Assembly: GCA_023512255.1 (NCBI GenBank)
Contig: JAILZY010000006.1
Coordinates: 1 to 64,000, forward strand
Source of the DNA: a bacterium
GTDB lineage: Bacteria; SZUA-182; DTGQ01
Direction: 5' to 3'
Length of the DNA: 64,000 bases
Both the position numbers and the translations under genes were made by a program. Of the stretch, positions 203 through 14,834 are shown piece by piece. Within the stretch, counting starts at the first letter, position 1. Each line of letters opens with the position of its first letter. The notes under the pieces were generated by a model, which ran no database searches, had not been told where the DNA came from, and worked only from the letters and a program-made list of their open reading frames with translations.

Positions 203-553
203 GTGGACGCCAAGATGAAAGCGCGATACGAAGCCAGGGCCAGGGTGATCAAGGCCTTAGCTCATCCAAGCCGACTTTTTATTGTGGATGAGCTCTCACG
301 TGGAGAAAAATGTGTATGCGAGCTGACTGAAAAAATCGGCTCGGATATATCTACGGTCTCAAAACACCTGTCTGTATTGAAAGCTGCGGGTTTGATTCAG
401 GACAAAAAATGCGGCACTCAGATATATTATCGACTAAGGAAACCATGTATTATGGAATTTTTTGCCTGCATAGAGTTGGTGATCGAATCTACTGCCAGGG
501 AACAACTGGAGCTGGTGGAGCTAGAAGTATCCGACCAGAATAAAGTATTATAA
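203..553 (+). CDS. ArsR/SmtB-family metal(loid)-responsive repressor
   Basis: This 116-residue winged-helix repressor is predicted to bind operator DNA and release it on binding a soft metal or metalloid. The family core is visible: ALAHPSRL near residues 18-25, then the recognition helix in DISTVSKHLSVLKAAGLI (about 48-65). A CVC pair at 37-39 sits at the alpha-3 position where ArsR/SmtB proteins coordinate ligands, and further cysteines lie at 70, 82 and 89. The GTG start at 203 has an AGGGGG ribosome site 7 bases upstream; an in-frame ATG at 215 is the alternative. As first gene of the operon it probably controls the thioredoxin, DGC, ArsF/ArsG and permease genes that follow. The actual inducer cannot be read from sequence. 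Confidence 0.9.
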   Translation: MDAKMKARYEARARVIKALAHPSRLFIVDELSRGEKCVCELTEKIGSDISTVSKHLSVLKAAGLIQDKKCGTQIYYRLRKPCIMEFFACIELVIESTAREQLELVELEVSDQNKVL

Positions 554-594
554 TCTTTAGATTAACCCTTATATTAATGAGGAGGCAAACAGAG

Positions 595-834
595 ATGAGC
601 GTGAAAAAGATTCAGATCCTGGGCACGGGTTGTCCAAAGTGCAAAAAGCTGGCCGAGAGTGCCGAAGTGGCCGCCAAAGAGCTTGGTCTTGAGTATGAAC
701 TTGAAAAAGTTACTGATATTGCAGCTATTATGGGCTTTGGGGTAATGATGACCCCTGCTTTGGCCGTAAATGGCCAGGTTAAAGTAGCTGGCCGGGTGCC
801 CTCGGTTGATGAGATTAAAAAAATGCTGGCTTAA
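595..834 (+). CDS. Small thioredoxin-like CxxC redox protein
   Basis: This 79-residue thioredoxin fold resembles the minimal 'redox-active disulfide protein 2' (MTH895-like) family. CPKC at residues 13-16 is the redox pair, followed by the cis-Pro region in MMTPALAVNGQVK, where NGQVKVAGRVPS is typical of the group. The ATG at 595 is chosen because GAGGAGG lies just upstream; an upstream in-frame ATG at 577 would overlap that ribosome site. Such proteins often sit beside ArsR regulators and permeases of the ArsP type. It likely supplies or accepts electrons in thiol exchange, possibly with the ArsF/ArsG-like pair downstream, but its partner is not known. Confidence 0.85.
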   Translation: MSVKKIQILGTGCPKCKKLAESAEVAAKELGLEYELEKVTDIAAIMGFGVMMTPALAVNGQVKVAGRVPSVDEIKKMLA

Positions 835-906
835 GCTTTACTCCTCAAGGAATTAATCTGCGAGTAAATCGCTACTAAGTCTTTAGAAGATAAGGATTAA
901 TAAACT

Positions 907-1125
907 ATGCCGATGTTAGAAATTACCCGGAAAGTATTAACCTTGGAGCCTGAGGATGTGATAGAACTAGAGCGGATCATAACCGATGAGGACAAGGAGG
1001 GTGCGTATCTATTCCTAAAAAAGTGTATTGAGCGAAAGCTTCTCTCATCCCAGGAGAATAAACTGAAGTGCCACCTTGATGGAGAAGTCGATCCGCAGGG
1101 CTCATTTGCCGCCAAGCAAAAGTAA
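907..1125 (+). CDS. Small conserved-looking protein of unknown function
   Basis: A 72-residue acidic then basic protein with no signal peptide or membrane segment and a single cysteine. I do not recognise the family. It starts MPMLEITRKVLTLEPEDVIE, has a predicted helical middle, and ends in a polar tail. It is co-directional with the thioredoxin (72 bases upstream) and the DGC protein (83 bases downstream), so it probably belongs to the operon. No strong ribosome site precedes it (only GATAAGGATTA). An antisense frame of equal length over the same bases looks like a shadow, because it has no operon context. Confidence 0.55.
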   Translation: MPMLEITRKVLTLEPEDVIELERIITDEDKEGAYLFLKKCIERKLLSSQENKLKCHLDGEVDPQGSFAAKQK

Positions 1126-1129
1126 AAAG

Positions 1130-1176
1130 AGAGTAACTGTGATGATTAAGCTAAGAGTAACCATGATGATCAAGCT
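1130..1176 (+). repeat. Imperfect 23-bp direct repeat after a stop codon
   Basis: Copies at 1130-1152 and 1154-1176 match at 20 of 23 positions. The pair lies just after the stop at 1123-1125 and before the DGC gene. It is one example of the stop-proximal duplications seen through the window. Confidence 0.75.
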
Positions 1177-1208
1177 ATAAAAATGATCACAAGGAGGAGG
1201 ATATATCT

Positions 1209-1592
1209 ATGGCTAACGATAACAATTCTTCCTGTGCTTGTAGCTCTGCACCGAAGCTGATTTTCCCCTGCTCAGGGGCTTCTGATACTGGTGAGATTAC
1301 TGACCGGGCTGCCCGCAAATTGACTAAGGAGGGGGCGGGCAAGATGTTCTGTCTGGCGGGGATAGGAGGCCGGGTGAGTGGAATCATGGCCTCAACTCAA
1401 TCTGCAGCTAAGATTTTAGTCATTGACGGCTGCCCGCTCCATTGTGCTCGAAAAACGCTTGAGGAGGCTGGCTTTATGGAATTTGAGCACCTTCGCCTTG
1501 CAGACCTTGGCCTTGAAAAAGGCAAATCGCCTGTCTGTGATGAGTGGATTGAGAAGGTCGCGGCCCAAGGACGCTCCTTTCTTAATGGCTAA
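1209..1592 (+). CDS. DGC-domain protein, predicted zinc binding (copy 1)
   Basis: A 127-residue protein of the DGC family (PF08859, named for its Asp-Gly-Cys motif), annotated in databases as putative zinc-binding. The diagnostic cysteines are present: PCSG (Cys21), Cys48, and IDGCPLHCA (Cys75, Cys79). An extra N-terminal CAC pair (9, 11) is unique to this copy. A strong AAGGAGGAGG ribosome site supports the ATG. Three more DGC domains lie on the opposite strand at 6363-8111, which links the two halves of the locus. No catalytic role has been established for the family; metal or persulfide handling is plausible from the cysteine set but is inference. Confidence 0.85.
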   Translation: MANDNNSSCACSSAPKLIFPCSGASDTGEITDRAARKLTKEGAGKMFCLAGIGGRVSGIMASTQSAAKILVIDGCPLHCARKTLEEAGFMEFEHLRLADLGLEKGKSPVCDEWIEKVAAQGRSFLNG

Positions 1593-1686
1593 TCAGTTAA
1601 TGACTAACTGACTAATCTAAATTGAAACATTCAAGAATTGAAACATCCAAAAGAAAAATATTGCAAGATCTTCAAGGGAGAGAATT

Positions 1687-2292
1687 ATGAAACCGAAATT
1701 GACTATTTTGATTACTTTTTTTATTACCTTGAGTTTGGTTGCTTTGAGTGTGATTTTTAATGTTTCGAGGCTGTCTGCGGCCCAAGGGGCATCTCGGGTG
1801 CAGGCTGGAGCAAAACAATCGGTTTCGTCTCAGGCAGCCAAGGCAGCGGCAAGTCGGCCAATCGCATCAAAAGAACAGCAATCGAAAGAACAGCGGACGA
1901 CCGCTGGCCCCAAAGAGCGCAGCTTGGCAGAGACTCCGTCCAAATTATCTCACAAGGTCATAGCCTACTATTTTCACGGGAAATTTCGCTGCCCATCCTG
2001 CAAGAAGATTGAGGCTTACGCCAAGGAGGCAATTGAGGGCCAGGGTGGTTTTGCCGATCTCATCAAAAGTGGCCATCTGGAGTGGCGGATAGTCAATGTG
2101 GAAGAGCCTGGCAATGAGCACTTTATCAAAGACTTTCAGCTCTATACTAGATCATTGGTCATCGTTGATATTCGAGGTGGAGAGCAGAAACAGTGGAAGA
2201 ATCTAGCCAAGGTCTGGGAGCTTTTCTACGATAAGGAAGCCTTTATCAACTATGTTCGTGATGAAATTAAAGCTTACCTGGGGAGGAGCTGA
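1687..2292 (+). CDS. ArsF-like exported thioredoxin-fold protein
   Basis: This 201-residue protein resembles the family annotated as 'nitrophenyl compound nitroreductase subunit ArsF'. It has an N-terminal signal or anchor (about residues 5-27), a low-complexity Ala/Ser/Gln/Lys linker to about 88, and a thioredoxin-like domain starting VIAYYFHGKF with CPSC at 102-105. It overlaps the ArsG-like gene by one base (TGATG), implying translational coupling. In the ArsEFG system described for aromatic arsenicals, ArsF and ArsG act together, and the same gene pair recurs beside ArsR and ArsP-type permeases. The linker places the redox domain outside the membrane. The substrate in this organism is unproven. 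Confidence 0.75.
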   Translation: MKPKLTILITFFITLSLVALSVIFNVSRLSAAQGASRVQAGAKQSVSSQAAKAAASRPIASKEQQSKEQRTTAGPKERSLAETPSKLSHKVIAYYFHGKFRCPSCKKIEAYAKEAIEGQGGFADLIKSGHLEWRIVNVEEPGNEHFIKDFQLYTRSLVIVDIRGGEQKQWKNLAKVWELFYDKEAFINYVRDEIKAYLGRS

Positions 2293-2984
2293 TGAAAGAG
2301 CTTCTTTTTGGAGCAATTTCAGCCCTCTGGCTTGGGATTCTGACCTCAATTAGTCCCTGCCCTTTGGCCACGAATATTGCCGCTATCTCTTTTATTGGCA
2401 ATCGGCTAAGTAGCGGCCGGCGGGTGATCTGGTCAGGGTTTTTGTATACTGTTGGCAGGATGATCGCCTATCTTGCTTTGGGGATCGTCACTGTGGCTGG
2501 CATCATGTCTATTCCTGGCGTAGCCAATTTTTTGCAGCAGTATATGAACAAGCTTCTTGGGCCGATCCTGATTATCGTCGGCCTGATTTTACTTGAGCTA
2601 ATCAGGATCAACCTCACAGGATGGTCATCATCGACTGAGAGGGCACAAAAGACTGCCGAAAGAGGCGGCATTTTGGGTGCAGGATTGCTTGGAATGTTCT
2701 TTGCTCTCTCTTTTTGCCCCATCTCGGCAGCTCTCTTCTTTGGAAGCCTAATTCCGCTTTCGGTGAGGCATAATTCGATGATGATCCTACCCTCGCTCTA
2801 TGGGCTTGGAACCGGCATTCCGGTCATGCTATTTGCCATCCTGATTGCTGTGGGCACTAGGGCTGTGGGCAAGGCCTTCAACATGTTGACCAAAATCGAG
2901 TGGTGGGCACGGCGAATCACCGGCATCATTTTCATCGCGGTTGGGATATATTATTCCCTGGTATACCTATTTGGGGTATTGTAG
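2292..2984 (+). CDS. ArsG-like / CcdA-type transmembrane protein
   Basis: A 230-residue polytopic membrane protein of the DsbD/CcdA-like superfamily, closest to the 'aromatic aminobenzylarsenical efflux permease ArsG' group. About six hydrophobic segments are visible. Two cysteine-proline motifs in membrane-flanking positions, ISPCP (near residue 22) and SFCP (near 140), are the hallmark pair that shuttles electrons across the membrane in CcdA proteins. It is coupled by a one-base overlap to the ArsF-like gene. I infer that it passes reducing power to the exported CPSC domain of that protein. A role as an exporter, as the database name implies, is the alternative. Confidence 0.75.
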   Translation: MKELLFGAISALWLGILTSISPCPLATNIAAISFIGNRLSSGRRVIWSGFLYTVGRMIAYLALGIVTVAGIMSIPGVANFLQQYMNKLLGPILIIVGLILLELIRINLTGWSSSTERAQKTAERGGILGAGLLGMFFALSFCPISAALFFGSLIPLSVRHNSMMILPSLYGLGTGIPVMLFAILIAVGTRAVGKAFNMLTKIEWWARRITGIIFIAVGIYYSLVYLFGVL

Positions 2985-3005
2985 AAGAAGGAGTAGGATA
3001 AAGAT

Positions 3006-4295
3006 ATGGACTGGAGAAAGGAATGGAAACCTCTTGTTCTAATAGTAGCTTTATTTCTTGGTTTTTTCTATCTTCCAGTAGGAGCAGAGCGGTTTGATCG
3101 GGCGATCATGGAAGCGCTCTATCTGGCTAAATGGTATGCCAGAGAGCATGTATTGTTATGTCTTGTGCCGGCTTTTTTTATCGCTGGAGCGATAGGAGTT
3201 TTTGTCAGTCAAGCCTCGGTCATGAAATATTTAGGGGCCAGGGCCAATAAGGTGCTAGCCTACGGGGTTGCCTCTATTTCTGGAACTGTTTTGGCTGTCT
3301 GCTCCTGTACGGTACTGCCTCTGTTTGCAGGGATATACAATATGGGAGCAGGGATTGGTCCGGCCACGGCTTTTCTATATTCAGGGCCAGCCATCAATGT
3401 GTTGGCTATTATCTTGACAGCCCGGGTTCTTGGCCTTGAGCTTGGAATAGCCCGAGCCGTTGGAGCTGTTCTATTTAGTGTGGTTATTGGTCTTTGCATG
3501 CATTTTATTTTCCGCAAAGAAGAGCTGGCTAAGGCTAGTGCCCAGGCCGCTATGCCTGATCCTGAGGTGTCAAGACCCCTTTGGCAAAACACCGCCTGGT
3601 TTGCCAGTATGGTGGCTATTTTGGTCTTTGCCAACTGGGGCAAGCCAGCCGTGGCCAGCGGCCTGTGGCAGACTATCTATTCGCTCAAATGGACCATCAC
3701 CTCTATCTGTGCTCTCATCTTTAGTCTGATGCTTATCGGCTGGTTCCATATGGACTGGCTAAAGGTATTGTTAGCTTCAGCCGCGGTGGTTATCTTGGCC
3801 TTTGTTTTCCCCACCGAGCCGATGATTCCCTTTGCTGCTGGAGCCATTGGATTATCAGCCATTACCAGTACTGATCATGGTGAGATGGGTGAATGGTTCA
3901 GTGCAACCTGGGGATTTGCCAAGCAGATCTTGCCTCTTCTTCTATTTGGGGTCCTGATTGCCGGTGTTTTGCTCGGCCGGCCAGGCCAGGAAGGTTTTAT
4001 TCCTTCCACCTGGATCAGCAGATCTGTAGGGGGAAATTCGCTATGGGCTAATTTCTTTGCCTCTATAGTAGGAGCATTTATGTACTTCGCTACCCTAACT
4101 GAGGTTCCGATCCTACAAGGCCTTATCGGCAGTGGGATGGGTAAGGGACCGGCTCTGGCTCTTCTTCTGGCTGGACCAGCCCTATCGCTTCCCTCTATGC
4201 TGGTCATCCGAAGCATTATGGGAACTAAGAAAACAGTGGTTTTTGTTTCCCTGGTGGTCATTATGGCTACAATCACCGGAATGATCTATGGATAA
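3006..4295 (+). CDS. ArsP-type polytopic permease
   Basis: A 429-residue permease of the ArsP / SO_0444-like family (DUF318), with about ten transmembrane segments. The characteristic cysteine cluster VCSCTVLPLF is near residues 98-107, followed by GAGIGPATAFLYSGPAINVLA, a signature of the family. A second inverted half has LLAGPALSLPSMLVIRSIMG near the C-terminus. ArsP members export trivalent organoarsenicals, and SO_0444-type members have been linked to metal efflux. AGGAGTAGGATAAAG precedes the ATG, 21 bases after the ArsG-like gene. With ArsR at the head of the operon, efflux of an organometalloid or thiophilic metal is the likeliest role. Confidence 0.85.
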   Translation: MDWRKEWKPLVLIVALFLGFFYLPVGAERFDRAIMEALYLAKWYAREHVLLCLVPAFFIAGAIGVFVSQASVMKYLGARANKVLAYGVASISGTVLAVCSCTVLPLFAGIYNMGAGIGPATAFLYSGPAINVLAIILTARVLGLELGIARAVGAVLFSVVIGLCMHFIFRKEELAKASAQAAMPDPEVSRPLWQNTAWFASMVAILVFANWGKPAVASGLWQTIYSLKWTITSICALIFSLMLIGWFHMDWLKVLLASAAVVILAFVFPTEPMIPFAAGAIGLSAITSTDHGEMGEWFSATWGFAKQILPLLLFGVLIAGVLLGRPGQEGFIPSTWISRSVGGNSLWANFFASIVGAFMYFATLTEVPILQGLIGSGMGKGPALALLLAGPALSLPSMLVIRSIMGTKKTVVFVSLVVIMATITGMIYG

Positions 4296-4394
4296 ATTTT
4301 TGGCTGAAGCGGGGCGAATTACAAGCTATTAAGATTCTTGGGGAAATGCTTGCTCAAAACCAGAAGGTCATAATTGGGAGGGGTGAGAAAAAGC

Positions 4395-5483
4395 ATGCAA
4401 GAGCATCAGGGTGCTAATCAAGGTATTGCTCAGAGTATTTATCAAAGTCATAGCAAAAAGCTACAATGGCAAAACTTAACCTTAAATATTCTGGGAGGTC
4501 AGGCGATCCTAATTGCTTATATTGGGTTGAAGGCCGGGCTGTTTCAGGCCATTGACCAAGCCTATCCATCTGGAATTGATGAGCTTTCTTTGGCTAAAAA
4601 ACTTGGATTTGCGCCACGATATGTTCAAGTATGGTGTCAAGCTGCCTACGCTTTTAAACTCCTTGAGTTAGATGAGTACGGTAACTATCGGCTTGTGCCT
4701 AATATGGCCTCTTTGCTCTTAGATACTGACGATCCTTTGTATATGGGCAGTCGTATTAGATTTTTTGCCTCTCTCTATGAAGATTATCAGTTCTTTCTCC
4801 AGCATCTTCAATCAGGTAGTATCGTTCCAAGGGAGAGCAGTAAATCTTCTTTAGACGTTATTTACGAAATGACTAGACTTGATTTTAAAATGATTACCGA
4901 GATGGTTTTGCCGCAAGCTGATAAAATTGTCTCTAGGCTGGATGAGCACGGGGGCGTCATACTAGATATCGGAGTGGGGGTAGGATGTTCTTTAATCCAT
5001 TATGCAAGACGATTTCCAAAGGCTCATATCGTCGGTATTGATATTGACCCTTCGGCAGTGAAACAGAGTCAGCAAGCCATTGCCGAAGCCGGCCTTGCCA
5101 ACCAAATTACTGTCCGTCAGGATGATGCCAATTTGTTAAAAGAAGAATGTGTCTATGATTTGATTATCATGAATCTTGTCTTACATGAGACAGGCGGCTC
5201 GTCATCAGAATATCGCAACGTATTACGCCGGGTTCGTCAGGCTCTCAAGCCTGGAGGAGTAGTGGTTGTCTGTGAGCTGCCCTATCCTGACTCAGTGACT
5301 GAATACCGCAATAAGCCATTATTTCAAATGTTGGCTGGCTTGCAGATCCACGAGGTTTTGTCAGGCGGCGGCAAAATCACCATGGGAGAGCTGCGCAATC
5401 TGCTTGAGAGCACAGGTTTTTCTAATATGCGGATCGCTGATCAGCCGATTCCCTATCGATTTGTAATGATGGCGGAAAAGTAG
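4395..5483 (+). CDS. SAM-dependent methyltransferase with winged-helix dimerisation domain
   Basis: A protein of about 362 residues with the architecture of acetylserotonin/hydroxyneurosporene O-methyltransferases: an N-terminal winged-helix dimerisation region (roughly 20-110) and a class I Rossmann domain from about 185. The SAM site reads ILDIGVGVGCSLIH, followed by GIDIDPSAV. The ATG at 4395 is preferred because GGGAGGGGTG lies 7 bases upstream; a TTG at 4374 would overlap that ribosome site. It lies 79 bases after the permease stop. No substrate can be assigned. The context (ArsP-type permease, DGC proteins, lipoyl carrier) leaves open methylation of a metalloid or of a sulfur compound. 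It lacks the Cys arrangement of ArsM. Confidence 0.8.
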   Translation: MQEHQGANQGIAQSIYQSHSKKLQWQNLTLNILGGQAILIAYIGLKAGLFQAIDQAYPSGIDELSLAKKLGFAPRYVQVWCQAAYAFKLLELDEYGNYRLVPNMASLLLDTDDPLYMGSRIRFFASLYEDYQFFLQHLQSGSIVPRESSKSSLDVIYEMTRLDFKMITEMVLPQADKIVSRLDEHGGVILDIGVGVGCSLIHYARRFPKAHIVGIDIDPSAVKQSQQAIAEAGLANQITVRQDDANLLKEECVYDLIIMNLVLHETGGSSSEYRNVLRRVRQALKPGGVVVVCELPYPDSVTEYRNKPLFQMLAGLQIHEVLSGGGKITMGELRNLLESTGFSNMRIADQPIPYRFVMMAEK

Positions 5484-5501
5484 GATTTAGGGATTATCCC
5501 G

Positions 5502-5530
5502 AAAGTTTGCACGATTAAAGTTTGCACGAT
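5502..5530 (+). repeat. 14-bp direct repeat before the lipoate ligase
   Basis: AAAGTTTGCACGAT occurs at 5502-5515 and again at 5517-5530, perfectly matched and one base apart. The second copy sits immediately upstream of the ribosome-binding region of the lipoate ligase gene, so the duplication may have altered its 5' end. Confidence 0.85.
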
Positions 5531-6295
5531 CGAGGTGTTTGTGAGATTCTGATCTTTATTATTCATAATGATAATATCAATCCCTATTTCAACCTATCGC
5601 TTGAGGAATACCTTTTTCGACAGTTTAATAATGACTGCTTTATGCTCTGGCAAAACTCCCGCTGTGTAGTAGTGGGGAGGAATCAGTATACTCTGGCTGA
5701 GATTAATCTTGACTACATAAAAGCGCATGATATTCCGGTAGTAAGAAGACTTTCAGGCGGGGGGGCGGTTTTTCATGACCTTGGAAACCTTAACTATACC
5801 TTTATTGTTACTGTTCATGATTGGCAGAAGAGCTCCAGCTTTGAAAAATTCACGACTCCTATCCTCAATGTGCTGCACAGGCTCTCCATAAGAGCAGAGA
5901 GATCAAAAAGAAATGACTTAACGATTGATGGGAAAAAGTTTTCAGGCACTGCCCAATATCGACATAGAAATAGGCTACTTCACCACGGAACCCTGCTTTT
6001 TTCATCGAATCTAGTTGACCTCTCTTCTACCTTGACAGCCGATCCGTCGCGGTTTCAGGGAAGAGGTATAAGGTCAACTATCAGCCAGGTAACCAATATT
6101 AGGGATTATATTCCAGGGGAGTTAACGCTTGCTCAATTCCGCGACCTGATTATGGAGCAGGTCAGGGAAGTATATAAAGATTCATGCCTCTATACCCTAA
6201 CGGATCATGACCTTAGCCAGATTCATAAACTGATGGAAGAAAAGTATTCCACTTGGGAATGGAATTTCGGCATATCACCGCTGGTGGGTGGGTAG
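5522..6295 (+). CDS. lplA: Lipoate-protein ligase A family, unusual 5' end
   Basis: This ligase activates lipoate with ATP and attaches it to a lysine of a lipoyl domain. The family motifs are clear: RRLSGGGAVFHDLGNLNYTF (about residues 76-95) and the catalytic lysine in NDLTIDGKKFSGTAQ. The 5' end is odd. The long frame can open only at a TTG (5522) lacking a ribosome site. GAGGTG at 5532-5537 instead points to a GTG at 5541 that reads Met-Arg-Phe and then hits TGA. Removing the two bases 5550-5551 would join Met-Arg-Phe to IFIIHNDN, giving a normal LplA N-terminus. An ATT or CTG start at 5546/5549 is the alternative. The body of the gene is intact. Its likely substrate is the lipoyl domain encoded at 7239-8111. 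Confidence 0.85.
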   Translation: MHDRGVCEILIFIIHNDNINPYFNLSLEEYLFRQFNNDCFMLWQNSRCVVVGRNQYTLAEINLDYIKAHDIPVVRRLSGGGAVFHDLGNLNYTFIVTVHDWQKSSSFEKFTTPILNVLHRLSIRAERSKRNDLTIDGKKFSGTAQYRHRNRLLHHGTLLFSSNLVDLSSTLTADPSRFQGRGIRSTISQVTNIRDYIPGELTLAQFRDLIMEQVREVYKDSCLYTLTDHDLSQIHKLMEEKYSTWEWNFGISPLVGG

Positions 6296-6362
6296 GGGGA
6301 TCAGAAGGTCAGGGAAAATATCAAGCTCCTTAAATTCTGCCCCCTTTTTTGCTAATTCAAGC

Positions 6363-6839
6363 TCAGCCTCCACATTGGCAGCCGCAGCCGCTAGCCGGTG
6401 TCTTCCCTGATTTTATCAGAGTATTTACATAATCCGTAAATACCTTTTCAAATTTTGTCTTTATTTCCTGAGCGACTTTGGTAATCATCTCTCGCTGTTC
6501 ATCGGTTAGATTTCTGGTCGAGAGAGCTGGCGATTCGGCTATTTCCTTTCCTATGATCTCAGAAACATCGAGAGCATCGCTCACCTGGCCGCTATATTTT
6601 TCAGTTGCTCTCTTTGCACAAAGCTTATCGCAGCCATCTACGGTTATGGTTGGGTAGGCATTGGCAAACATCCGCTCCTGCTCTCCACCTGCTAAAAAGA
6701 GCGGCAAGCAAATAGTAACTGTTTTGTCAGGATAAATTTCATCAATCATTTTTCTGGTAGCGAGCCGTGATATGGTCCCGCCAAGACAATTTTCTCCACT
6801 GCATGAGACAACACCTATCTTGATCACTCCCTCTGGCAT
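6363..6839 (-). CDS. DGC-domain protein with Cys-rich tail (copy 4)
   Basis: A 158-residue DGC-family protein (PF08859). Conserved cysteines are VSCSG (13), VTICLP (44) and VDGCDKLCAKR (70, 74). It differs from the other copies by a longer C-terminal half ending SGCGCQCGG, a Cys-rich tail that could bind or deliver a metal. It is the last gene of the leftward operon, with the start only two bases from the stop of the upstream DGC gene. Function is unknown; the domain name reflects a predicted zinc site. The adjacent convergent lipoate ligase ends 67 bases away. Confidence 0.85.
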   Translation of the reverse strand: MPEGVIKIGVVSCSGENCLGGTISRLATRKMIDEIYPDKTVTICLPLFLAGGEQERMFANAYPTITVDGCDKLCAKRATEKYSGQVSDALDVSEIIGKEIAESPALSTRNLTDEQREMITKVAQEIKTKFEKVFTDYVNTLIKSGKTPASGCGCQCGG

Positions 6840-6841
6840 AG

Positions 6842-7246
6842 TTATTCTTCCTCCTTAGCCAGTTTTTTAACTTTGGCTGCAATCCGTTCAGCTATCTCAT
6901 CCACAATCTGCCATCCTTCTTCGGTTAGCTCGGTTGCTGTACCTGGTTTTGCCCCTTTGTACTCTTTCATGATATCAATCATTTTCATCTTGTCTACCAC
7001 TATTCCTCCTGCCATTTCAACATTTTTAGCCGCACACATAGCTGGGCAGCCATCAAGGGTTATGCAGTTTTTCCCTTCTATCTTCTCCCTGGCCTCCTGA
7101 TCTCCAGTAACCAGATAAGCAAGACACATAGTTTCGCACTCTTGTGGACGTAAGTTTTGAGTAACTCTCAATGCACTCTCTCTGGCCAAAAGCCCATAGA
7201 CCTTACCCATCCCACTGCAGGGAATAACTTTAATTTTACTAAACAT
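6842..7246 (-). CDS. DGC-domain protein (copy 3)
   Basis: A 134-residue DGC-family protein with IPCSG (Cys10), Cys37, Cys41, Cys61 and LDGCPAMCAAK (Cys67, Cys71). Its start overlaps the 3' end of the DGC-GcvH fusion gene by eight bases, so translation is probably coupled and the proteins may form a complex. No signal peptide or membrane segment is seen, so it should be cytoplasmic. Its divergence from the flanking copies suggests distinct subunits and not a recent gene duplication. Confidence 0.85.
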   Translation of the reverse strand: MFSKIKVIPCSGMGKVYGLLARESALRVTQNLRPQECETMCLAYLVTGDQEAREKIEGKNCITLDGCPAMCAAKNVEMAGGIVVDKMKMIDIMKEYKGAKPGTATELTEEGWQIVDEIAERIAAKVKKLAKEEE

Positions 7247-8111
7247 GAAATGAATCCACCTTTCGTTTTAAGATATTAAAATAACTCTTAAAATCTAAAA
7301 GTAATTCTCTATCGTTTTCGAAATTCGTAAGTTCAAGCTCGGCAATCCACCCCTTTTCATAAGGGTTGTCATTTATTCGCTCAGGGGATGATACTAACTC
7401 ATCGTTAACCGCAACCACTTTTCCAGATACTGGTGAAACTATCTCAAAAACCGCCTTCCCTGATTCGATATTGCCTAATTCACCAAACTGCTCCACCTCG
7501 GCTCCAATGGTGGGAGGGGTGAAAAACATAATATCTGATAGACTTTGTTGAACAAAATCGGTAACGCCCACTCTAGCTCGGTGGCCGATCACATAAGCCC
7601 AACAATCATTCTCGTTAAAGAAGAATTGCTCCCCTTTTGGTACCCTGAAAATGAACTTATCTTTGGTATAGATTTCGTATTCGTATTTTTCAGGGAAAGC
7701 CACTACCTCCTCCCCTGCCCTTTTTACCTCTTTTTCCTTTTTGCTTTCTTCAGCCAGTAATTGTTGGGCTATCGCCTCTGCCAGGGCAAGCTCATTTGAG
7801 CCCAATCTTAAAGATGCTCCTATCTGTTGGCCTCGTTTTTTGGCTTCCTCAGTAACGGTGATTTTTTCAGCGATCTTGAGATTTTTTTCAGCAGCCAGCT
7901 TGCTGGCGCATCTTGTCTGACAACCATCAATTACTACTAATGGTCTGTCTTGCGTGCTCTGACGATATTTGGCCTCAGCCACCCGAAAGAAAACCGGACA
8001 GATAATTTCACTTTCTGATCTTTCCTCGACCTTGAGAGCGATTTCTCTGGAAATGCAGCCGGCAGTCTTATCCAATCCATTGCAAGGCAAAAGAGCATAT
8101 CGTTTACTCAT
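7239..8111 (-). CDS. DGC domain fused to a GcvH-like lipoyl carrier domain
   Basis: A 290-residue two-domain protein. Residues 1-120 are a DGC domain (LPCNG, Cys10; IICP, Cys38; IDGCQTRCASK, Cys64 and Cys68). After a charged linker (121-140), residues 141-290 match glycine cleavage H protein: GHRARVGVTDFVQQSLSDI, then GNIESGKAVFE with the lipoyl lysine at 219, then SPVSGKVVAVND and NPYEKGWIAELEL. The lipoylation lysine and its ESxKA context are kept, so the domain should be modified. No gcvT or gcvP lies nearby; instead a lipoate ligase and a dihydrolipoamide dehydrogenase flank the locus. The lipoyl arm probably carries a substrate or electrons between the DGC thiols and Lpd. I know of no characterised protein of this architecture. 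Confidence 0.85.
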   Translation of the reverse strand: MSKRYALLPCNGLDKTAGCISREIALKVEERSESEIICPVFFRVAEAKYRQSTQDRPLVVIDGCQTRCASKLAAEKNLKIAEKITVTEEAKKRGQQIGASLRLGSNELALAEAIAQQLLAEESKKEKEVKRAGEEVVAFPEKYEYEIYTKDKFIFRVPKGEQFFFNENDCWAYVIGHRARVGVTDFVQQSLSDIMFFTPPTIGAEVEQFGELGNIESGKAVFEIVSPVSGKVVAVNDELVSSPERINDNPYEKGWIAELELTNFENDRELLLDFKSYFNILKRKVDSFHV

Positions 8112-8138
8112 TATCTTTAATCTCCATTATTCTTATTC

Positions 8139-8423
8139 TCATTTCATCTCCTCTCTCAGCTCTTTTATCTTTCTAGTAACCTCTCCTTTATCGGGAAAGG
8201 AAAGTGCATCCGGTCCACAGGTTTTACTACAAGCTCTACAAAAAACTATGCAATTTTGCGGATTTTTGACAATAAGCTTTTTCTCCTCATGTTCTCTTAC
8301 TTCAAACACCTGGTGAGGACAAAACTTAACACACTCCATACAGTAGTTACATTTGCTGTAATCTATCCTTGGACTCCAATCTATTTTTTCTCTCGGCACT
8401 CCCATGAAGGTATCTTCACTCAT
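8139..8423 (-). CDS. 2[4Fe-4S] ferredoxin-type protein
   Basis: A 94-residue electron carrier with two cluster motifs. The first is Cys25, 28, 31 and 35 (CxxCxxCxxxC, then Pro). The second is Cys58, 62, 65 and 69, with three residues between its first two cysteines where two are usual, as in some HdrA and ferredoxin subunits. The start lies four bases after the HdrA-like gene stop, so the two are co-translated. It likely links the HdrA-like protein and the lipoyl carrier or Lpd to a low-potential electron pool. Confidence 0.88.
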   Translation of the reverse strand: MSEDTFMGVPREKIDWSPRIDYSKCNYCMECVKFCPHQVFEVREHEEKKLIVKNPQNCIVFCRACSKTCGPDALSFPDKGEVTRKIKELREEMK

Positions 8424-8427
8424 AATA

Positions 8428-8814
8428 TCAGGCCTCCTTTTTTTCTCTTTCTTTCAGGTTTTCCAATGCCTTCTCCACCTTTTGATAGGCTTCCTCTGTG
8501 GTCATGTCTCTGATATCGATCATGATCGCGTCCTTTTCAAGAGAAAGGCCGGCATCCTGGAAGGCCTGCTGAAACATTTTTTTTTGCATATTCGGGGCAC
8601 AGGCGCCGATAATAACCTTTCGGTGAGCTTTAAGATAATCAGCTAGGAATCTATCTCCATCTACCTCGCAAAGCTGGGGATGAATAAAAGCATATTCCAC
8701 AGGGAGTTCAACCCTGACCTGATTGATGAAATCCCATATATCCATCTTTTGGAATCCTGGGCATTTCCCCGTACATACACACATTATAAAACCGGGTAAT
8801 TGTTCATTTGCCAT
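8428..8814 (-). CDS. HdrA N-terminal-domain-like protein
   Basis: A 128-residue protein resembling the N-terminal region of heterodisulfide reductase subunit A without the flavin domain. The pattern CVCTGKC (Cys12, 14, 18), then Cys49, then VIIGACAPNMQKKMFQQAF with Cys72 parallels HdrA, where ACSPxxHExxFR is conserved. Such Cys-rich modules bind an iron-sulfur cluster or interact with HdrB/C-like partners. AGGAGA lies 9 bases before the ATG. It is followed four bases later by the ferredoxin. No HdrB, HdrC or hydrogenase subunit is present here, so the partner must be elsewhere or the module works with the ferredoxin and Lpd. Confidence 0.65.
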   Translation of the reverse strand: MANEQLPGFIMCVCTGKCPGFQKMDIWDFINQVRVELPVEYAFIHPQLCEVDGDRFLADYLKAHRKVIIGACAPNMQKKMFQQAFQDAGLSLEKDAIMIDIRDMTTEEAYQKVEKALENLKEREKKEA

Positions 8815-8905
8815 CTGTCTTAATCTCCTATGATCATCTTTTTTAAAGTTTAGATCTTAATTAATAATTAATAATAATAATTAGTTAAAGTTTTAGGAAA
8901 AGGGT

Positions 8906-10357
8906 TTAAGGGGAAAACCCTTTTTCAAAAGGGTTTTCCCCTTTTTTATAGATATCCCATACTGCATCGACACAGGCTTCCATGATAGCCTCACCCAGAG
9001 TTGGATGCGGATGGATCATATCAGCGAGCTCTTTGGCTTTTATCTCCAAGCCAGTCGCCAGTGCAACCTCCAAAATCAGTTCTGAAGCATAGGGGCCTAT
9101 GATTTGCCCCCCCAGAATTGTGCCGCTATTTTTATCCGTGATAATCTTTACCAGTCCATCTCTTTCCCCCAGGCATAGTGCTCGGCCATTTTTTCTAAAA
9201 TCAAATCGGCCGACCTTTGGTATAAATCCCCTTTTTTTGGCCTCATCTTCAGTTAAACCGACAGAGGCCATCTCTGGATTGGTATAAATACAGGAGGGAA
9301 CGGCATCATAATTGAGCTTGCTTTTGATTCCAAGGGCATTTTGTACAGCTATCTTGCCCTCTGCAAAAGCAAGGTGGGCGAGTAACTTGCCACCGATGAC
9401 ATCCCCGGCTGCATATACTCCCCTGATATTGGTTTCCATATGTTCATCTACAGCTATAGCGCCGTTACATATTTTGACGCCAAGAGTAGCCAGCTCAGAA
9501 GCTATGATCTTTGGTTTTCTACCCGTAGCTAGGAGTATCTTTTGAGCATCAATAAAATTTTCTTCTCCCGTCTCGTCAATAATAATTACTCGAAGCCATT
9601 GCTCTTTTTCCTCTATTATTTCCTTGACCTTTGAGGATAGCCTAAATTTGACTCCCTGTCTTTTCAAGATCTTTAAAAGCTCAGAGGCTATTTCCCTATC
9701 CTCTTGGGGAAGGATACTATCTTGTACCTCGACTACGGTAACTTTTGTATTAAGAGAGACGAACAAGGAGGCAAATTCCAGACCTATGGCTCCAGCCCCT
9801 ATGATAAGCAGATGGTGCGGAATATCCTCTAGGTCTAAAGCTTGGTCACTGGTAATTACTCCAGGGAGCTCAACGCCAGGAATAGCGGGAGTTGAGCTTT
9901 CAGATCCAGTAGCGATAATCAGCTTTTCATAGGCTACTTTGATCTTCTCGCCTTCAGAGTTTACTGAAATTATGCCCGGCTGCTGGATTTGTCCTCTGCC
10001 TTTGAGGATATGAACCATATTACTTGTAAGGAGTTGTTCCAAACCCATCCGCAAGTTTTTAACTACCCTATCTTTACGAGCAACTGAAGCCATAAAGTCA
10101 AAAGGGATAGGGGCCAAGGATGAATTTATCCCCAGTTCCCTAGCTCTATGAGTGATCAGATAGGCTGCTTCGGAGGTTCTTAGCAGGGCCTTGGTTGGGA
10201 TACAACCTCGGTTTAAACAGGTGCCTCCTATCTCTCTTTCCTCGATGAGGATAGTGTCAGTGGCTCCTAATTGGGCTGCCCTGAGAGCAGCCATATAACC
10301 GGCAGGTCCTCCGCCAAGGATAGCAATTTGAGTTTTGATTTGTTTTTCAGTGTTCAT
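8906..10357 (-). CDS. lpdA: Dihydrolipoamide dehydrogenase
   Basis: A 483-residue FAD disulfide oxidoreductase that reoxidises dihydrolipoyl groups with NAD+. Visible motifs are GGGPAGY (FAD site, about 15-21), the redox disulfide GGTCLNRGCIPTK (about 44-56), the NAD site GAGAIGLEFAS, the second FAD motif ending AAGDV, and the C-terminal catalytic HPHPTLGEA. Length is normal for the family. Good -35/-10 elements lie upstream (10392-10420) and AAAGGA precedes the ATG, so it is the first gene of the leftward operon. No 2-oxoacid dehydrogenase or gcv gene is near, so the DGC-GcvH fusion is the evident lipoyl partner. The last codons are built from a perfect palindrome. Confidence 0.92.
   Translation of the reverse strand: MNTEKQIKTQIAILGGGPAGYMAALRAAQLGATDTILIEEREIGGTCLNRGCIPTKALLRTSEAAYLITHRARELGINSSLAPIPFDFMASVARKDRVVKNLRMGLEQLLTSNMVHILKGRGQIQQPGIISVNSEGEKIKVAYEKLIIATGSESSTPAIPGVELPGVITSDQALDLEDIPHHLLIIGAGAIGLEFASLFVSLNTKVTVVEVQDSILPQEDREIASELLKILKRQGVKFRLSSKVKEIIEEKEQWLRVIIIDETGEENFIDAQKILLATGRKPKIIASELATLGVKICNGAIAVDEHMETNIRGVYAAGDVIGGKLLAHLAFAEGKIAVQNALGIKSKLNYDAVPSCIYTNPEMASVGLTEDEAKKRGFIPKVGRFDFRKNGRALCLGERDGLVKIITDKNSGTILGGQIIGPYASELILEVALATGLEIKAKELADMIHPHPTLGEAIMEACVDAVWDIYKKGENPFEKGFSP
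8908..8943. repeat. Perfect 17-bp-arm palindrome at the lpdA 3' end
   Basis: Arms 8908-8924 and 8927-8943 are perfectly complementary with a two-base spacer. The palindrome encodes the last residues of Lpd (GENPFEKGF) and reaches into the stop codon. On the plus strand it is followed by a T run and would look like an intrinsic terminator for rightward transcription. On the lpdA strand no T run follows, so it could instead attenuate or stabilise the downstream message. Confidence 0.8.
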
Positions 10358-10472: not shown

Positions 10473-13142
10473 CTAATTTGAAGGTGTCGCGGGTACATAC
10501 AGCAGGCAGCCTTCACCTGGCGGCAGGGGATAGGCATCCCCGCAGTTTTGCCCCATGAACCGATAGGCAACGAGCCAGTTGCCCCCTTGCTGGCTGTAGC
10601 GCTGAAGGCTTGAAACATTACCGGTTTTTAAAAGCTCGGTCAGCAATTGATAGGAGGTCAAGGCAGTCGAAGAAAGGCCTGTCGGGATGCCAAGCAGGCT
10701 CATGCCTGGAGATAGCCGATTGATTATCTGGGAAAGAGAGTATACCTCGATCTGATCAATAGAAAAATCGACCATTTTCCCCCGCTTCATGTAGAGCAGG
10801 CAGGCGCCAGCATCACTTAGTATAAACTCCTTGCCTCGAATTTCACCATTTACCCAGGCTGTGGTTTGAAATTTTTGGCTCACCGGATCATACCCCTGGA
10901 CCGACTTGGCATAATCCTCCTCCAGATAGGCCAAAAGCTCATCAGAGGTGAGGATTCCCTCCTGACCATCAGGGCAAAATAGGATATTGAGGCCTTCGGG
11001 GATGTAGACCAGGCCGCTGATGCCGATCATATCGGTCTGCCAGTCAGCAAGGCCATCGGGATTGGTTACTCGCAAGGTATAGTCCCCGCGGCGAAGGCCG
11101 GGTGGTAAAAAGGCCTGAATCCTGGTTCCGTCACTGCTGACCTCAGCCACTTCCAGGGTCCAGCAGAATGACTGGGCTAAAATCTGTAGCCCAGCTTCTC
11201 CAGCGGCCAGGTATATTTTCCCGTTTTTCAGAAAAACCTCTCTGACTATGCCGGGAACTTCCACATGGGCAATCAGCAGCGGCTTGTGCGGATTACGGAT
11301 ATCGGCTACGGCTAAATCACCTTGGCCATCAGCGATGAAAGCATACCCTCCGCTCACGACAACATCGGAGGCCTCACCAGGGGTATCCACCTGAGCCAGG
11401 AGTGTGGGGTGGGTCTGATCCTGCACATTGATCAAGGCTAGCCCCTCAGTCCCGTCAGCTACATAGGCGATCTCTCCTTCTAGCCACACCCCTTGAGCCT
11501 TGCCAGGCGTATCACAGTAGCCTTTGATTATTGGTGCGCTTGGCGAATCCGCGGCAATGATAACCAGCCCCTGCTCAGCACAGGCCGCGTAGACAGCTTT
11601 TTCTCTAGCCAGCACATCCATGACTACCCCAGGTATGCGTACCCTGCCCAATACCTGTGGGCTGGGTTTAGTGATATCGAGAATAGCTACTCCATCGGTT
11701 CCATCGGCCACGTAGAGCAATGGGTAATTAAGGGATAGTCCATAGGGGATTCCGCGGCTGTAGTAGCTTCCTGCGGGTAAGGGGTGGGTTGGATTTTGAA
11801 TATTGATCACATAGACTCCGGTCCGGCTATCGACCACATAGGCGTAATTGCCAGACACCTCTACCTTGCGGGCCATCCCTTGCAGGTGATAGGTAGTGGC
11901 CAGGGTCGGCTGATTTTCCCTCAAAGCGACGATCTCAAGCCCTCTTTCACCTCCAGCAAGGTAAGCATAATCTTCGCCTATCCACAGTCCCTGGACATCG
12001 CCCGCTGTGTCGCATCCCCCTAGCGAAGGGAAGCGGTGGGTATTGATAACCTGCAATCCTGAAGGTCCATCAGCCATATAGACATAATCATCCTCGACCC
12101 AAAGACCACAAGCCAATCCAGTCGTATCATAGCTTCCGATCAGGCCTGGTTTGGCCGCGTCCCTGACATCTATCATCTGAAGACCAGCATCTGCCGCCGC
12201 GAGATAGACGCGGCCTCCTGCGGCCCAAATTCCTTCTGCATCACCGGCCACATCAAGGCTTGCCACCAGGAGCGGATTTTCTGGATCATTGATATGAATC
12301 ACTTTCAACCCGGCGGCCCCATTGGCCACATAAGCATATTCCCCTACCGTGCACACCCCCTTAGCCAGGCCAGAGGTATCGAAGCTGCAGACCAGTCGCG
12401 GGGAGTTGGGATCTGAGATCTTAATGATACTCACTCCCTTTGACCAGTCAGCCACATAGGCATAATCGCCGGATAGAGAAAGACCACAGGCAGATCCCGG
12501 CGTCTCACAGACAGCTTTCAAACCTGGGTTTAGAGGATCATGAACATCTACAATAGCCAGCCCCTGATCATTGGCCAGATACACCAGGCCATCCCTTCCT
12601 TTGATCTTCCAGGCATATCCACCTAAAGCCAGATGAGCACAAGGCTTAGGATTTTCAGGATCGCTAATATTGATCACCGCAAGGCCCTGATCACCATCAG
12701 CCAGATAAGCATACTCTCCGCTTACCCATACCCCGTGAGCTGTCCCTTCCGTATCACAACTTCCGACCCGGGCAAGCTGCCGCGGATTGCGAATTCGGAT
12801 AACTTCAAGCCCAGCATTATCATCAGCCACATAGGCATATCCATCGGCCACCATGACCTCACGGGCAAAATCCTTTGTGCGAAAGCTTCCAGCCAGGACC
12901 AATCCCTCGCCGTAGATACTGACTATTGCTTGTGGGGAGAAGTTTTCGCCGAGAATGGTAATAGGGGTTGTTCCACCTGCATAGATGACGGACGGGCTAA
13001 TGGAGTTAAGGCGGGGTGCGGCTCCTCCTTCGGCCGGGGATAAGGAATCGGATGAGATGACTAAGGGGAGAAAAACGAAGCTTGTGAAGATCAAGGCAAA
13101 AGTAATACGGTATAGTGCTTCAACTTTGCTTTTTTCAGGCAT
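10473..13142 (-). CDS. Exported LVIVD beta-propeller protein inserted in a TIG domain
   Basis: An 889-residue exported protein. A hydrophobic N-terminal segment (about 10-30) is followed by the first half of an IPT/TIG domain (SPSVIYAGGTTPITILGENF). Then come 14 LVIVD-type repeats of about 42 residues, each with a Y(A/V)Y(V/L)AxG strand and a GLxVIxI(x)DP strand, consistent with two seven-bladed propellers. After them the second half of a TIG domain reappears (SSDGTRIQAFLPPGL, then DYTLRVTNPDG). The C-terminal 200 residues are unrecognised. The gene stands alone and has no catalytic motif. A surface adhesion or binding role is likely from the fold but unproven. Confidence 0.8.
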   Translation of the reverse strand: MPEKSKVEALYRITFALIFTSFVFLPLVISSDSLSPAEGGAAPRLNSISPSVIYAGGTTPITILGENFSPQAIVSIYGEGLVLAGSFRTKDFAREVMVADGYAYVADDNAGLEVIRIRNPRQLARVGSCDTEGTAHGVWVSGEYAYLADGDQGLAVINISDPENPKPCAHLALGGYAWKIKGRDGLVYLANDQGLAIVDVHDPLNPGLKAVCETPGSACGLSLSGDYAYVADWSKGVSIIKISDPNSPRLVCSFDTSGLAKGVCTVGEYAYVANGAAGLKVIHINDPENPLLVASLDVAGDAEGIWAAGGRVYLAAADAGLQMIDVRDAAKPGLIGSYDTTGLACGLWVEDDYVYMADGPSGLQVINTHRFPSLGGCDTAGDVQGLWIGEDYAYLAGGERGLEIVALRENQPTLATTYHLQGMARKVEVSGNYAYVVDSRTGVYVINIQNPTHPLPAGSYYSRGIPYGLSLNYPLLYVADGTDGVAILDITKPSPQVLGRVRIPGVVMDVLAREKAVYAACAEQGLVIIAADSPSAPIIKGYCDTPGKAQGVWLEGEIAYVADGTEGLALINVQDQTHPTLLAQVDTPGEASDVVVSGGYAFIADGQGDLAVADIRNPHKPLLIAHVEVPGIVREVFLKNGKIYLAAGEAGLQILAQSFCWTLEVAEVSSDGTRIQAFLPPGLRRGDYTLRVTNPDGLADWQTDMIGISGLVYIPEGLNILFCPDGQEGILTSDELLAYLEEDYAKSVQGYDPVSQKFQTTAWVNGEIRGKEFILSDAGACLLYMKRGKMVDFSIDQIEVYSLSQIINRLSPGMSLLGIPTGLSSTALTSYQLLTELLKTGNVSSLQRYSQQGGNWLVAYRFMGQNCGDAYPLPPGEGCLLYVPATPSN

Positions 13143-13535: not shown

Positions 13536-14834
13536 ATGAAAAAAATTGGCGTCTTGGTCAAGACTCATTCCCCCATCCTCTTAAAGGATCAGGAATGTTC
13601 CTCAGGAAAAATTCTGAAGACGCGAAGGTATATTCCAGGCATTTATCTGCGGGAAGCGATAACTAACCAGTTGCTTCAGGGACGATCCAGTCTAAATCGC
13701 TGCTTTGATCAACTATTCTGCGACTCTCACCGCTGGGGAATGGAGATTGTCTTTCCTAATTGCTATCCCAATCTCAATGCCTATACCTTTCCTATGCTCC
13801 TTCCAGCCACAGCCAAAAGCTGCCGATGGAAGCCTGGCTTCATTGAAGATAGCAGTGTAGATGAGCAGCACGGAGTCTTTGATACCCTGCTGAATCAGAT
13901 CATATTTCAGCAGGTGCTGGCTTCCTCTATTAAAAGTGGCCGCCCCTCCAGAAGCCTTACCCTTATTCAGGATGCCTACCACAGGCTCATCGAGCAAGGA
14001 ACCCTCTATTGCAACATTTGCCATGAGGTCGCCAATGCCTACCAGGTTGAATATGCCAAACCTCACGGCAATTTCAGACAGATTCCTATCCGAACCTACT
14101 GGCAGCAGCCAGAATCGGCCCTCTCGAGCAGTCGCATAACTGCCGCCGCCTCTTTCGCTCATCATCGAAAGCAGCAGCAGGGGCGATGTATTGAATTTAT
14201 CAGTGAGCGGACCTGGTTTCTTGGCTTTTCCTTTCTTCCCACTTCTCTGGTTGATCTGTATAAGGAGTCCCTTGAGAGTATCACCCATCTTGGGGAAGGG
14301 AGCGGACAGAGAATAGGGAGGGTTGAGATTACAGTGCGCGAAATTGAAGATCATGAGTTATCCTTACGGCAGAGGGCCTTAAAGCTTAACCAGAAATACC
14401 ACAGGATTCAGAAGGAATACTCGCTTGGCCGAACGGATGCGTTGATCACGGTTAACATCCAGTCTGAAACCATTCTAAGAGACCAAAATGGCAGACCGCT
14501 CACCAAGCTAAGCTCATCTTTCCTGGCAGAAACCATACAGCGGATTTACCGCCAGATTGCAGGTGAGGATCTTTCTGCCGAGGAGGCAGCCTGTCAGGAG
14601 GTAGTCTCTTTTTCGCGGCCTGTGTACACAGGTGGATGGAAATCAAGCCGTGAGGCCACAATAGCCATAGCCAGAGGAAGCGTATTTGTTTTTTCTTTCC
14701 CTAACTTGAGCCCAAAACTTTTCCTGGCTCTCGATCATCTTGAAAAACATGGCCTCGGTGAAAAACGGGGTGAGGGGTATGGCCAGATTCTAATTTGCGA
14801 TCCCTTCCACCTAGAAGTAGGCGGCGTGGTGTAA
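13536..14834 (+). CDS. Csx10-like RAMP protein, no CRISPR locus nearby
   Basis: A 432-residue protein with RAMP features resembling type III-D Csx10. An N-terminal ferredoxin-like start (MKKIGVLVKTHSPILLKDQE) is followed by RRYIPGIYLREAI, matching the 'xIPGSxLRGA' motif of RAMPs. A zinc-knuckle-like CNICHE lies near residue 155. The C-terminal glycine-rich loop GLGEKRGEGYGQILIC is diagnostic of the superfamily. Csx10 normally belongs to a multi-subunit crRNA effector, but no cas10, other RAMP, cas6, adaptation gene or repeat array is within the window. GAGAGGGATAAG precedes the ATG. It may be a relic, a stand-alone RNA-binding protein, or a subunit recruited by an effector encoded elsewhere. 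Confidence 0.75.
   Translation: MKKIGVLVKTHSPILLKDQECSSGKILKTRRYIPGIYLREAITNQLLQGRSSLNRCFDQLFCDSHRWGMEIVFPNCYPNLNAYTFPMLLPATAKSCRWKPGFIEDSSVDEQHGVFDTLLNQIIFQQVLASSIKSGRPSRSLTLIQDAYHRLIEQGTLYCNICHEVANAYQVEYAKPHGNFRQIPIRTYWQQPESALSSSRITAAASFAHHRKQQQGRCIEFISERTWFLGFSFLPTSLVDLYKESLESITHLGEGSGQRIGRVEITVREIEDHELSLRQRALKLNQKYHRIQKEYSLGRTDALITVNIQSETILRDQNGRPLTKLSSSFLAETIQRIYRQIAGEDLSAEEAACQEVVSFSRPVYTGGWKSSREATIAIARGSVFVFSFPNLSPKLFLALDHLEKHGLGEKRGEGYGQILICDPFHLEVGGVV

Follow-up and report, generated by a model that had tools for sequence, protein, structure and literature searches.

A Conserved Five-gene Core Built around a Predicted Lipoyl Carrier Is Probably Linked to Arsenic in Distantly Related Bacteria and Archaea

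Introduction

Lipoic acid is the textbook cofactor of the 2-oxoacid dehydrogenases and of glycine cleavage, to which a single role in sulfur oxidation has recently been added; it is also a classic target of arsenic. Here we describe a gene cluster in which a predicted lipoyl carrier, the fusion of a DGC domain to a domain of the glycine cleavage H-protein (GcvH) type, is encoded together with a ferredoxin, an HdrA-related protein (HdrN) and two stand-alone DGC proteins, beside an ars operon. The cluster lies in a stretch of 64,000 nucleotides (contig JAILZY010000006.1 of assembly GCA_023512255.1; hereafter the window) from a bacterial genome that is 96.6% complete. The only Hdr-linked lipoyl protein known so far is LbpA of the sHdr pathway of sulfur oxidation; LbpA proteins typically carry two conserved cysteines, and some archaeal ones lack them (PMC6067878). 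On the arsenic side, the ArsEFG proteins have been assigned to the detoxification of aromatic arsenicals (Chen, Zhang and Rosen 2019, as cited in PMC9144182), and an SAO system is mentioned in PMC10418091. Searches of the open-access literature (DGC and arsenic, lipoate and arsenic resistance, SAO, arsEFG), a scope outside which most subscription journals fall, returned no description of the cassette reported here.

Results

A Five-gene Core Recurs in Distant Lineages

The minus strand of the window carries, from position 10357 down to 6363, the genes Lpd, HdrN, ferredoxin, DGC-GcvH, DGC_B and DGC_C, and the last five constitute the core. HdrN (8428-8814) is a stand-alone HdrA N-terminal-domain protein of 128 amino acids, recognized by phmmer and by its structural match to HdrA, and it is followed by a 2[4Fe-4S] ferredoxin of 94 amino acids with eight cysteines (8139-8423; Fer4 families). 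The DGC-GcvH fusion of 290 amino acids (7239-8111) matches both PF08859 (E 1.3e-18) and PF01597 (E 1.3e-29), and the stand-alone proteins DGC_B (6842-7246; 134 amino acids) and DGC_C (6363-6839; 158 amino acids) match PF08859 with E-values of 1.4e-13 and 5.3e-17, respectively.

HdrN was searched in 386 relatives, and an alignment of the DGC part of the fusion was then used to scan about 85,000 prokaryote species. The HdrN search led to a distant genome, that of an acidobacterium (G233), with ArsR, ArsE, HdrN, ferredoxin, DGC-GcvH, DGC_B, DGC_C and LplA in this order beside ArsC, ArsM and Acr3. At least 39 loci encoding the fusion were found, a lower bound because the scan was pattern-based. 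The hosts are Sinanaerobacter and other Clostridia, Peptococcaceae CEB3, Acididesulfobacillus, Acetobacterium and a related Eubacteriaceae bacterium, as well as Acidobacteriota, Actinomycetota, Lokiarchaeota and a Desulfovibrio. The core is complete in 35 of the 39 loci. Each of the remaining four is one or two genes short, and three of these lie on contigs of 3-10 kb; the ferredoxin counted for locus L119 lies elsewhere on its contig. Gene order and strand are constant, and the genes mostly overlap or are a few bases apart, with the sole exception of L089, where all core genes stand together in the permuted order DGC_B, DGC_C, HdrN, ferredoxin, DGC-GcvH. Chance clustering is ruled out by the recurrence of the same gene set in 39 loci, and the five genes form a system. 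The set is thus kept across genomes, a check that an earlier reading of the window made from the sequence alone (the sequence-only reading) had set for itself.

In a tree of the fusion proteins the loci were grouped largely by phylum, and the fusion of the window was placed within a branch of Clostridia (100/99). Searches of the same-genus genome and of other close relatives yielded GcvH matches and no fusion, so that the locus is accessory in its host lineage. These data suggest that the window locus was likely acquired by horizontal transfer, with which the clostridial position in the tree is consistent; no match to the locus was found in the plasmid database PLSDB.

Some loci carry additional genes around the core. 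Four lokiarchaeal loci (L096, L097, L101 and L113) contain a divergent extra DGC-like gene of about 158 amino acids beside an ArsR gene upstream of the core, and in the lokiarchaeal loci the core is followed by a DUF166 (DfsP-related) protein. In L108, from Actinomycetota, two further GcvH-like genes flank the core (6249-6827 and 12389-12772 of that locus), one of them directly after LplA.

Arsenic Genes Surround the Core

The neighbors of the core were determined by one BLAST procedure applied to up to 20 kb per locus (within 10 kb of the core), with 20 ordinary gcvH loci as controls. At least one of ArsC-like, ArsM, Acr3 and ArsA was found in 26/39 loci and in 0/20 controls (Fisher p 2e-7), and ArsR in 30/39 loci and in 0/20 controls (Fisher p 4e-9), p-values that overstate the independence of the data, since the 39 loci amount to about seven lineages and the lineages weigh more. 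Above-cut-off ArsM, Acr3 or ArsA was confirmed in six of the seven lineages: ArsM together with Acr3 in Acidobacteriota, Acididesulfobacillus and Actinomycetota, Acr3 in Clostridia and Lokiarchaeota, and ArsA in Acetobacterium.

The association extends to the immediate neighbors of HdrN. ArsE-type thioredoxins were present in 19/39 module loci, in many of them directly before HdrN, and in four Acidobacteriota (L094, L100, L115 and L117) HdrN is directly preceded by an ArsM-ArsE-type thioredoxin fusion, which takes the place of the free ArsE of other Acidobacteriota. The HdrN-ferredoxin pair also occurs without an adjacent lipoyl gene, accompanied by ArsR in G054, G330, G201 and G086, the last of which has a DGC gene as well, and in G382 it stands beside ArsR and ArsA with ArsD nearby. 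Taken together, these results support well a link between the core and arsenic, which we regard as highly probable. The sequence-only reading had left the thiophilic substrate open among arsenic, selenium and sulfane sulfur; the neighboring genes make it very probably arsenic, selenium and sulfane sulfur being less likely.

The Fusion Carries an H-protein-type Lipoyl Domain and a Four-cysteine DGC Domain

The fusion protein consists of an N-terminal four-cysteine DGC domain (residues ~1-120) and a C-terminal H-protein lipoyl domain (~155-288). Its AlphaFold model has a predicted local distance difference test score (pLDDT) of 92, the linker at ~126-133 being predicted with low confidence, and residues 155-288 of the model superpose on the H-protein 1htp with a Z-score of 22.6 and a root mean square deviation (rmsd) of 1.0. 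Residue K219 (codon 7455-7457, minus strand) corresponds to the lipoyl lysine in an alignment with solved H-proteins, and K219 and the DGC cysteines C10, C38, C64 and C68 are invariant among 37-40 aligned fusions. Attachment of lipoate to K219 is very likely. The aligned fusions showed no invariant cysteine in residues 140-290.

No solved relative of the DGC domain was found by sequence, and a structure search returned generic Rossmann/flavodoxin-like matches only, the best being 3pu6 (Z-score 8.9, rmsd 3.2 over 114 residues). As each of C10, C38 and C64/C68 follows a successive β strand in the predicted secondary structure, these cysteines probably come together along one side of the sheet.

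HdrN, Ferredoxin and DGC Proteins Are Core Components, and LplA and Lpd Are Helpers

HdrN has no Pfam match. Its relationship to HdrA emerged from a phmmer search against PDB (E 5.5e-4) and from a Foldseek search with its AlphaFold model (pLDDT 88), which matched the HdrA N-terminal domain with E-values of 3.6e-5 to 8.9e-5. The protein is 63-83% identical across the module loci that hold the gene, with invariant cysteines C12, C14, C18, C49 and C72; in alignments C12, C14, C49 and C72 seem to correspond to cysteines of HdrA, and C18 is extra. All eight ferredoxin cysteines (C25, C28, C31, C35, C58, C62, C65 and C69) are invariant. In DGC_B, whose gene adjoins the fusion gene in related loci, C10, C67 and C71 are invariant and C41 nearly so, and in DGC_C, whose gene is near that of the fusion in 39/39 loci, C13, C44, C70 and C74 are invariant. 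HdrN and DGC, which both place cysteines after successive strands of an α/β fold, were also compared as possible homologues, and the profile comparison was not significant (E ~0.1).

Two lipoate-related genes frame the core in the window. LplA (5522-6295, plus strand) is a lipoate-protein ligase that matches TIGR00545 above cut-off with 315 bits; the match covers model positions 3-244 of 328, and the C-terminal accessory domain is lacking. The gene is convergent with the core and stands at the end of the ars operon that spans 203-5483. Lpd (8906-10357, minus strand) is a dihydrolipoyl dehydrogenase (TIGR01350, 503 bits, above cut-off). The seven genes that the sequence-only reading had proposed at 5522-10357 are therefore all present at these coordinates. 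It had counted LplA and Lpd as members of the set; because their homologues occur in only 16/39 and 11/39 loci, respectively, they are better described as frequent but accessory partners, helpers rather than core, and elsewhere the cell's own enzymes may serve. A hairpin with a 16-bp stem (8908-8943), terminator-like on the plus strand only, lies between Lpd and HdrN and overlaps the Lpd stop codon; it could, but need not, keep Lpd off the core transcript.

The Module Is Neither Glycine Cleavage nor sHdr

Neither gcvT nor gcvP was found in any of the 39 module loci, the home genome has no GcvP (GDC-P), and above-cut-off GDC-P is absent from 10 of 37 module genomes. The fusion scores under the GcvH equivalog cut-offs (TIGR00527, 94.3 versus 115.85 bits; PRK01202, 107.9 versus 117), and in Acididesulfobacillus a complete gcv operon, including a GcvH of its own, lies at a distance of 1.4 Mb from the module. 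No HdrB-type CCG protein was detected in the 39 loci, and three module genomes contain no CCG protein at all. DsrE, TusA and rhodanese did not appear among the recurrent annotated neighbor clusters, nor 2-oxoacid dehydrogenase E1/E2 among the annotated neighbors, no search having been aimed at sulfurtransferases or at E1/E2. Because gcvT, gcvP and HdrB are missing from the loci and the LbpA cysteine pair is missing from the lipoyl domain, the module is neither glycine cleavage nor sHdr, which supports the proposal of the sequence-only reading that its lipoyl carrier stands outside the 2-oxoacid, glycine-cleavage and sHdr systems.

The home genome also encodes an ordinary GcvH (G000:C153:42669-43019), located in a folD-gcvH-metV-metF-Hdr-like cluster (L071, about 3689-9983) in spite of the missing GcvP, and the same-genus genome likewise has folD-gcvH-metV (L034). 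This protein may represent another orphan use of an H-protein, and it possibly draws on the same LplA and Lpd as the arsenic module. LipA was found in the home genome.

The ars Operon and Other Features of the Window

To the left of the core, NCBIfam models identified an operon of the type ArsR-ArsE-DGC-ArsF-ArsG-permease on the plus strand. It begins with an ArsR/SmtB-family repressor (203-553; NF033788, above cut-off) and an ArsE/MTH895-family thioredoxin-like protein (577-834; TIGR00412, 112 bits, above cut-off), and continues with a fourth DGC protein (1209-1592; PF08859, E 2.4e-31), an ArsF-family protein (1687-2292; NF040494, 109 bits, above cut-off), an ArsG-family, DsbD/CcdA-like permease (2292-2984; NF040495, 295 bits, above cut-off) and an ArsP/SO_0444/SaoE-type permease (3006-4295), whose matches to NF033936 and NF040736 are below cut-off and which is 65-70% identical to the permeases of the HdrN-bearing loci L062, L065 and L068. 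A methyltransferase gene (4374-5483) closes the operon. The fourth DGC gene is where the sequence-only reading had placed it; the ArsR/ArsP/methyltransferase operon that it had described stands as regards ArsR and in part as regards ArsP, of which the permease is a relative below all cut-offs, and the methyltransferase is not ArsM (34.8 bits versus a cut-off of 263). All four DGC proteins of the window score 51-108 bits against the PF08859 gathering cut-off of 27, and they are the only ones in the home genome.

Tandem duplications of 15 bp (5502-5530) and 24 bp (1130-1177) precede, respectively, LplA, directly, and the DGC gene of the ars operon. Directly upstream of Lpd, 10473-13142 encodes a secreted-looking protein of 889 amino acids with many similar repeats, by eye β-propeller/LVIVD-like, and 13536-14834 encodes a protein of 432 amino acids without Pfam match that by eye resembles CRISPR RAMP proteins (Csx10-like). 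Farther along are a repeat protein of 1956 amino acids (28028-33898), probably located at the surface, with ten DUF7507 stretches and several tandem 327-bp arrays in its gene, and a flagellar gene region (36996-57255) that includes FliF and FlhA (FHIPEP).

Discussion

The composition, conservation and arsenic neighborhood of the core, its H-protein-type lipoyl domain with the lysine, the DGC cysteines, the HdrA N-domain protein and the eight-cysteine ferredoxin, all read from sequence, point to a module for the handling of arsenic by anaerobes, with a lipoyl arm at its center, to whose full mechanism, as proposed below, we assign a probability of about 50%. Lipoate would be placed on K219 by LplA or, where the locus has no LplA, by the general machinery of the cell. 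Dihydrolipoyl dithiols are very tight binders of trivalent arsenic, and the dithiol arm and the DGC cysteines may bind it as arsenite or methylarsenite; As(III) is the favored ligand because it is the common node of ArsM, Acr3, ArsA and ArsP/ArsG. The arsenic would be passed between the DGC proteins and then to the partner available in each host, that is, ArsM, Acr3, ArsA or ArsP/ArsG, and ArsR would turn the module on when arsenic is present.

As for the electrons, the sequence-only reading had them run from the substrate to Lpd/NAD or to ferredoxin. This direction is thermodynamically doubtful for arsenic, since the arsenate/arsenite potential is far above those of lipoamide, nicotinamide adenine dinucleotide (NAD) and ferredoxin, and electrons should run towards arsenic. 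We consider likelier a relay in which reduced ferredoxin, through HdrN, and NADH, through Lpd where present, would supply the arm with electrons and so keep the lipoyl and cysteine thiols, and the bound arsenic, reduced; the same electrons might also reduce pentavalent or thiol-bound arsenic.

Several observations weigh against the arsenic-handling module as just outlined. Besides the small number of independent lineages, the ArsC-like matches of Acetobacterium and Desulfovibrio are under the NCBIfam cut-offs, and some loci, mostly on short contigs, have no arsenic gene; in the 20 kb of L095 there is none and ArsR is missing too, and L091 has ArsR only. LplA and Lpd are missing from many loci, and the DGC cysteines might hold zinc or an Fe-S cluster instead of arsenic. 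The main gap of the mechanism is the ferredoxin requirement: As(V) reduction alone needs no ferredoxin, and simple arsenate reduction therefore leaves the role of HdrN and ferredoxin unexplained.

A more demanding form of the proposal, which we put forward tentatively, is a lipoyl-dependent arsenic enzyme system distinct from the known ones, in which low-potential ferredoxin electrons would pass via HdrN to an arsenic-carrying lipoyl arm moving between DGC active sites and would reduce arsenic, for instance methyl- or aromatic arsenicals, or down to the arsine level, perhaps boosted by adenosine triphosphate (ATP) in a few relatives. A hydantoinase-like (ASKHA-type) protein follows ferredoxin-HdrN in G054 and, by size and position, in G330, and L115 has, between HdrN and the core ferredoxin, a fusion of such a protein with another ferredoxin (7115-9712 of that locus). 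Among the loci, a protein of this hydantoinase/oxoprolinase type is annotated after ferredoxin-HdrN in L060 (9701-11602) and assigned by size and position in L061 (7390-9294). ATP-assisted low-potential chemistry, or an ATP-linked electron donor, in some module variants is speculative.

The arsenic context and the thiol-rich proteins could also be accommodated by a sacrificial sponge or repair device, in which lipoylated DGC-GcvH mops up As(III) that would otherwise poison lipoyl enzymes, its classic victims, and ferredoxin and HdrN only keep the arm reduced, with no conversion of arsenic; LplA, where it accompanies the core, would secure lipoylation. A set of five tightly conserved genes that includes an Fe-S electron chain is, however, elaborate for such a purpose, some module genomes, the home genome included, lack GcvP, and HdrN-ferredoxin is found beside ArsA without an adjacent lipoyl gene, which makes this explanation rather unlikely.

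Since the sole Hdr-linked lipoyl protein known belongs to sulfur oxidation (PMC6067878), a transfer system like sHdr/LbpA may be envisaged, the arm carrying sulfane sulfur or selenium and the ars genes lying nearby through thioarsenic or selenium chemistry. A cysteine desulfurase-family gene occurs near the core in 10 loci and the window permease is closest to the SaoE/SO_0444 models. The desulfurase gene is nevertheless limited to clostridial loci, HdrB/CCG proteins and the two cysteines typical of LbpA are missing, and ArsR, ArsM, Acr3 and ArsA indicate arsenic, so that we hold a sulfur or selenium function to be unlikely.

Another thiophilic metal(loid) or organometal, such as antimony, mercury or tellurium, with arsenic as a merely co-selected neighbor, would agree with the response of ArsR, ArsA and Acr3-type proteins to antimony as well, and with the relationship of the window permease to SaoE of the putative organometallic SAO system; it is improbable in view of ArsM being part of the operon in four Acidobacteriota loci and of different arsenic genes accompanying the core in different lineages. 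An orphan H-protein of glycine cleavage or one-carbon metabolism, equipped with redox partners and beside ars genes by accident, is suggested by the fold of the domain and by the home genome's GcvH in a folD-metV-metF cluster, a sign that lipoyl chemistry without GcvP may exist, and is already largely refuted and very improbable given the loci devoid of gcvT/gcvP, the scores under the GcvH equivalog cut-offs, the separate gcv operon of Acididesulfobacillus and the conserved arsenic context.

The central idea of the sequence-only reading, a new lipoyl system linked to arsenic, has withstood the refutation tests that were set with it, the chemistry being a proposal drawn from the genes. The presence of the cassette across distantly related, oxygen-avoiding bacteria and archaea, nearly always next to genes for arsenic resistance, suggests an undescribed way of handling arsenic. 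If this is correct, what is classically a target of arsenic would have become a tool, in the form of a lipoyl arm working within an arsenic system; in the more demanding form of the proposal, anaerobes would possess a so far undescribed, oxygen-independent arsenic conversion. An arsenic function would also give a likely role to the DGC proteins, annotated until now only as putative zinc-binding, and provide candidate genes for anaerobic arsenic transformations without known enzymes.

Comparison with Known Systems

With GcvH of glycine cleavage, residues 155-288 of the fusion share the fold and the position of the lipoyl lysine, whereas the module protein is fused to a DGC domain and falls under the equivalog cut-offs. 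Like the module, the sHdr/LbpA system uses a GcvH-like carrier that is not part of central metabolism, and combines it with an HdrA-related protein, in many cases with a dedicated ligase and in some with Lpd; in contrast, the module has the HdrA N-domain only, no cysteine pair in the lipoyl domain, and arsenic neighbors in place of sulfur oxidation. HdrN keeps the fold and cysteine pattern of the HdrA N-terminal domain, but with its 128 amino acids it has neither the thioredoxin-reductase-like domain that binds flavin adenine dinucleotide (FAD) and is the site of bifurcation nor the further Fe-S domains of HdrA, and it shows the extra invariant C18.

Among arsenic systems, ArsEFG is represented in the left operon of the window by the ArsE, ArsF and ArsG families, and to our knowledge includes no lipoyl, DGC, ferredoxin or Hdr-like protein. 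The arsenite pump ArsA with its metallochaperone ArsD, the former present in Acetobacterium-type loci and beside HdrN-ferredoxin in G382, is comparable in that cysteine-rich carriers adjoin an arsenite exporter, whereas the carriers of the module, which are lipoyl, DGC and Fe-S proteins, have an electron supply.

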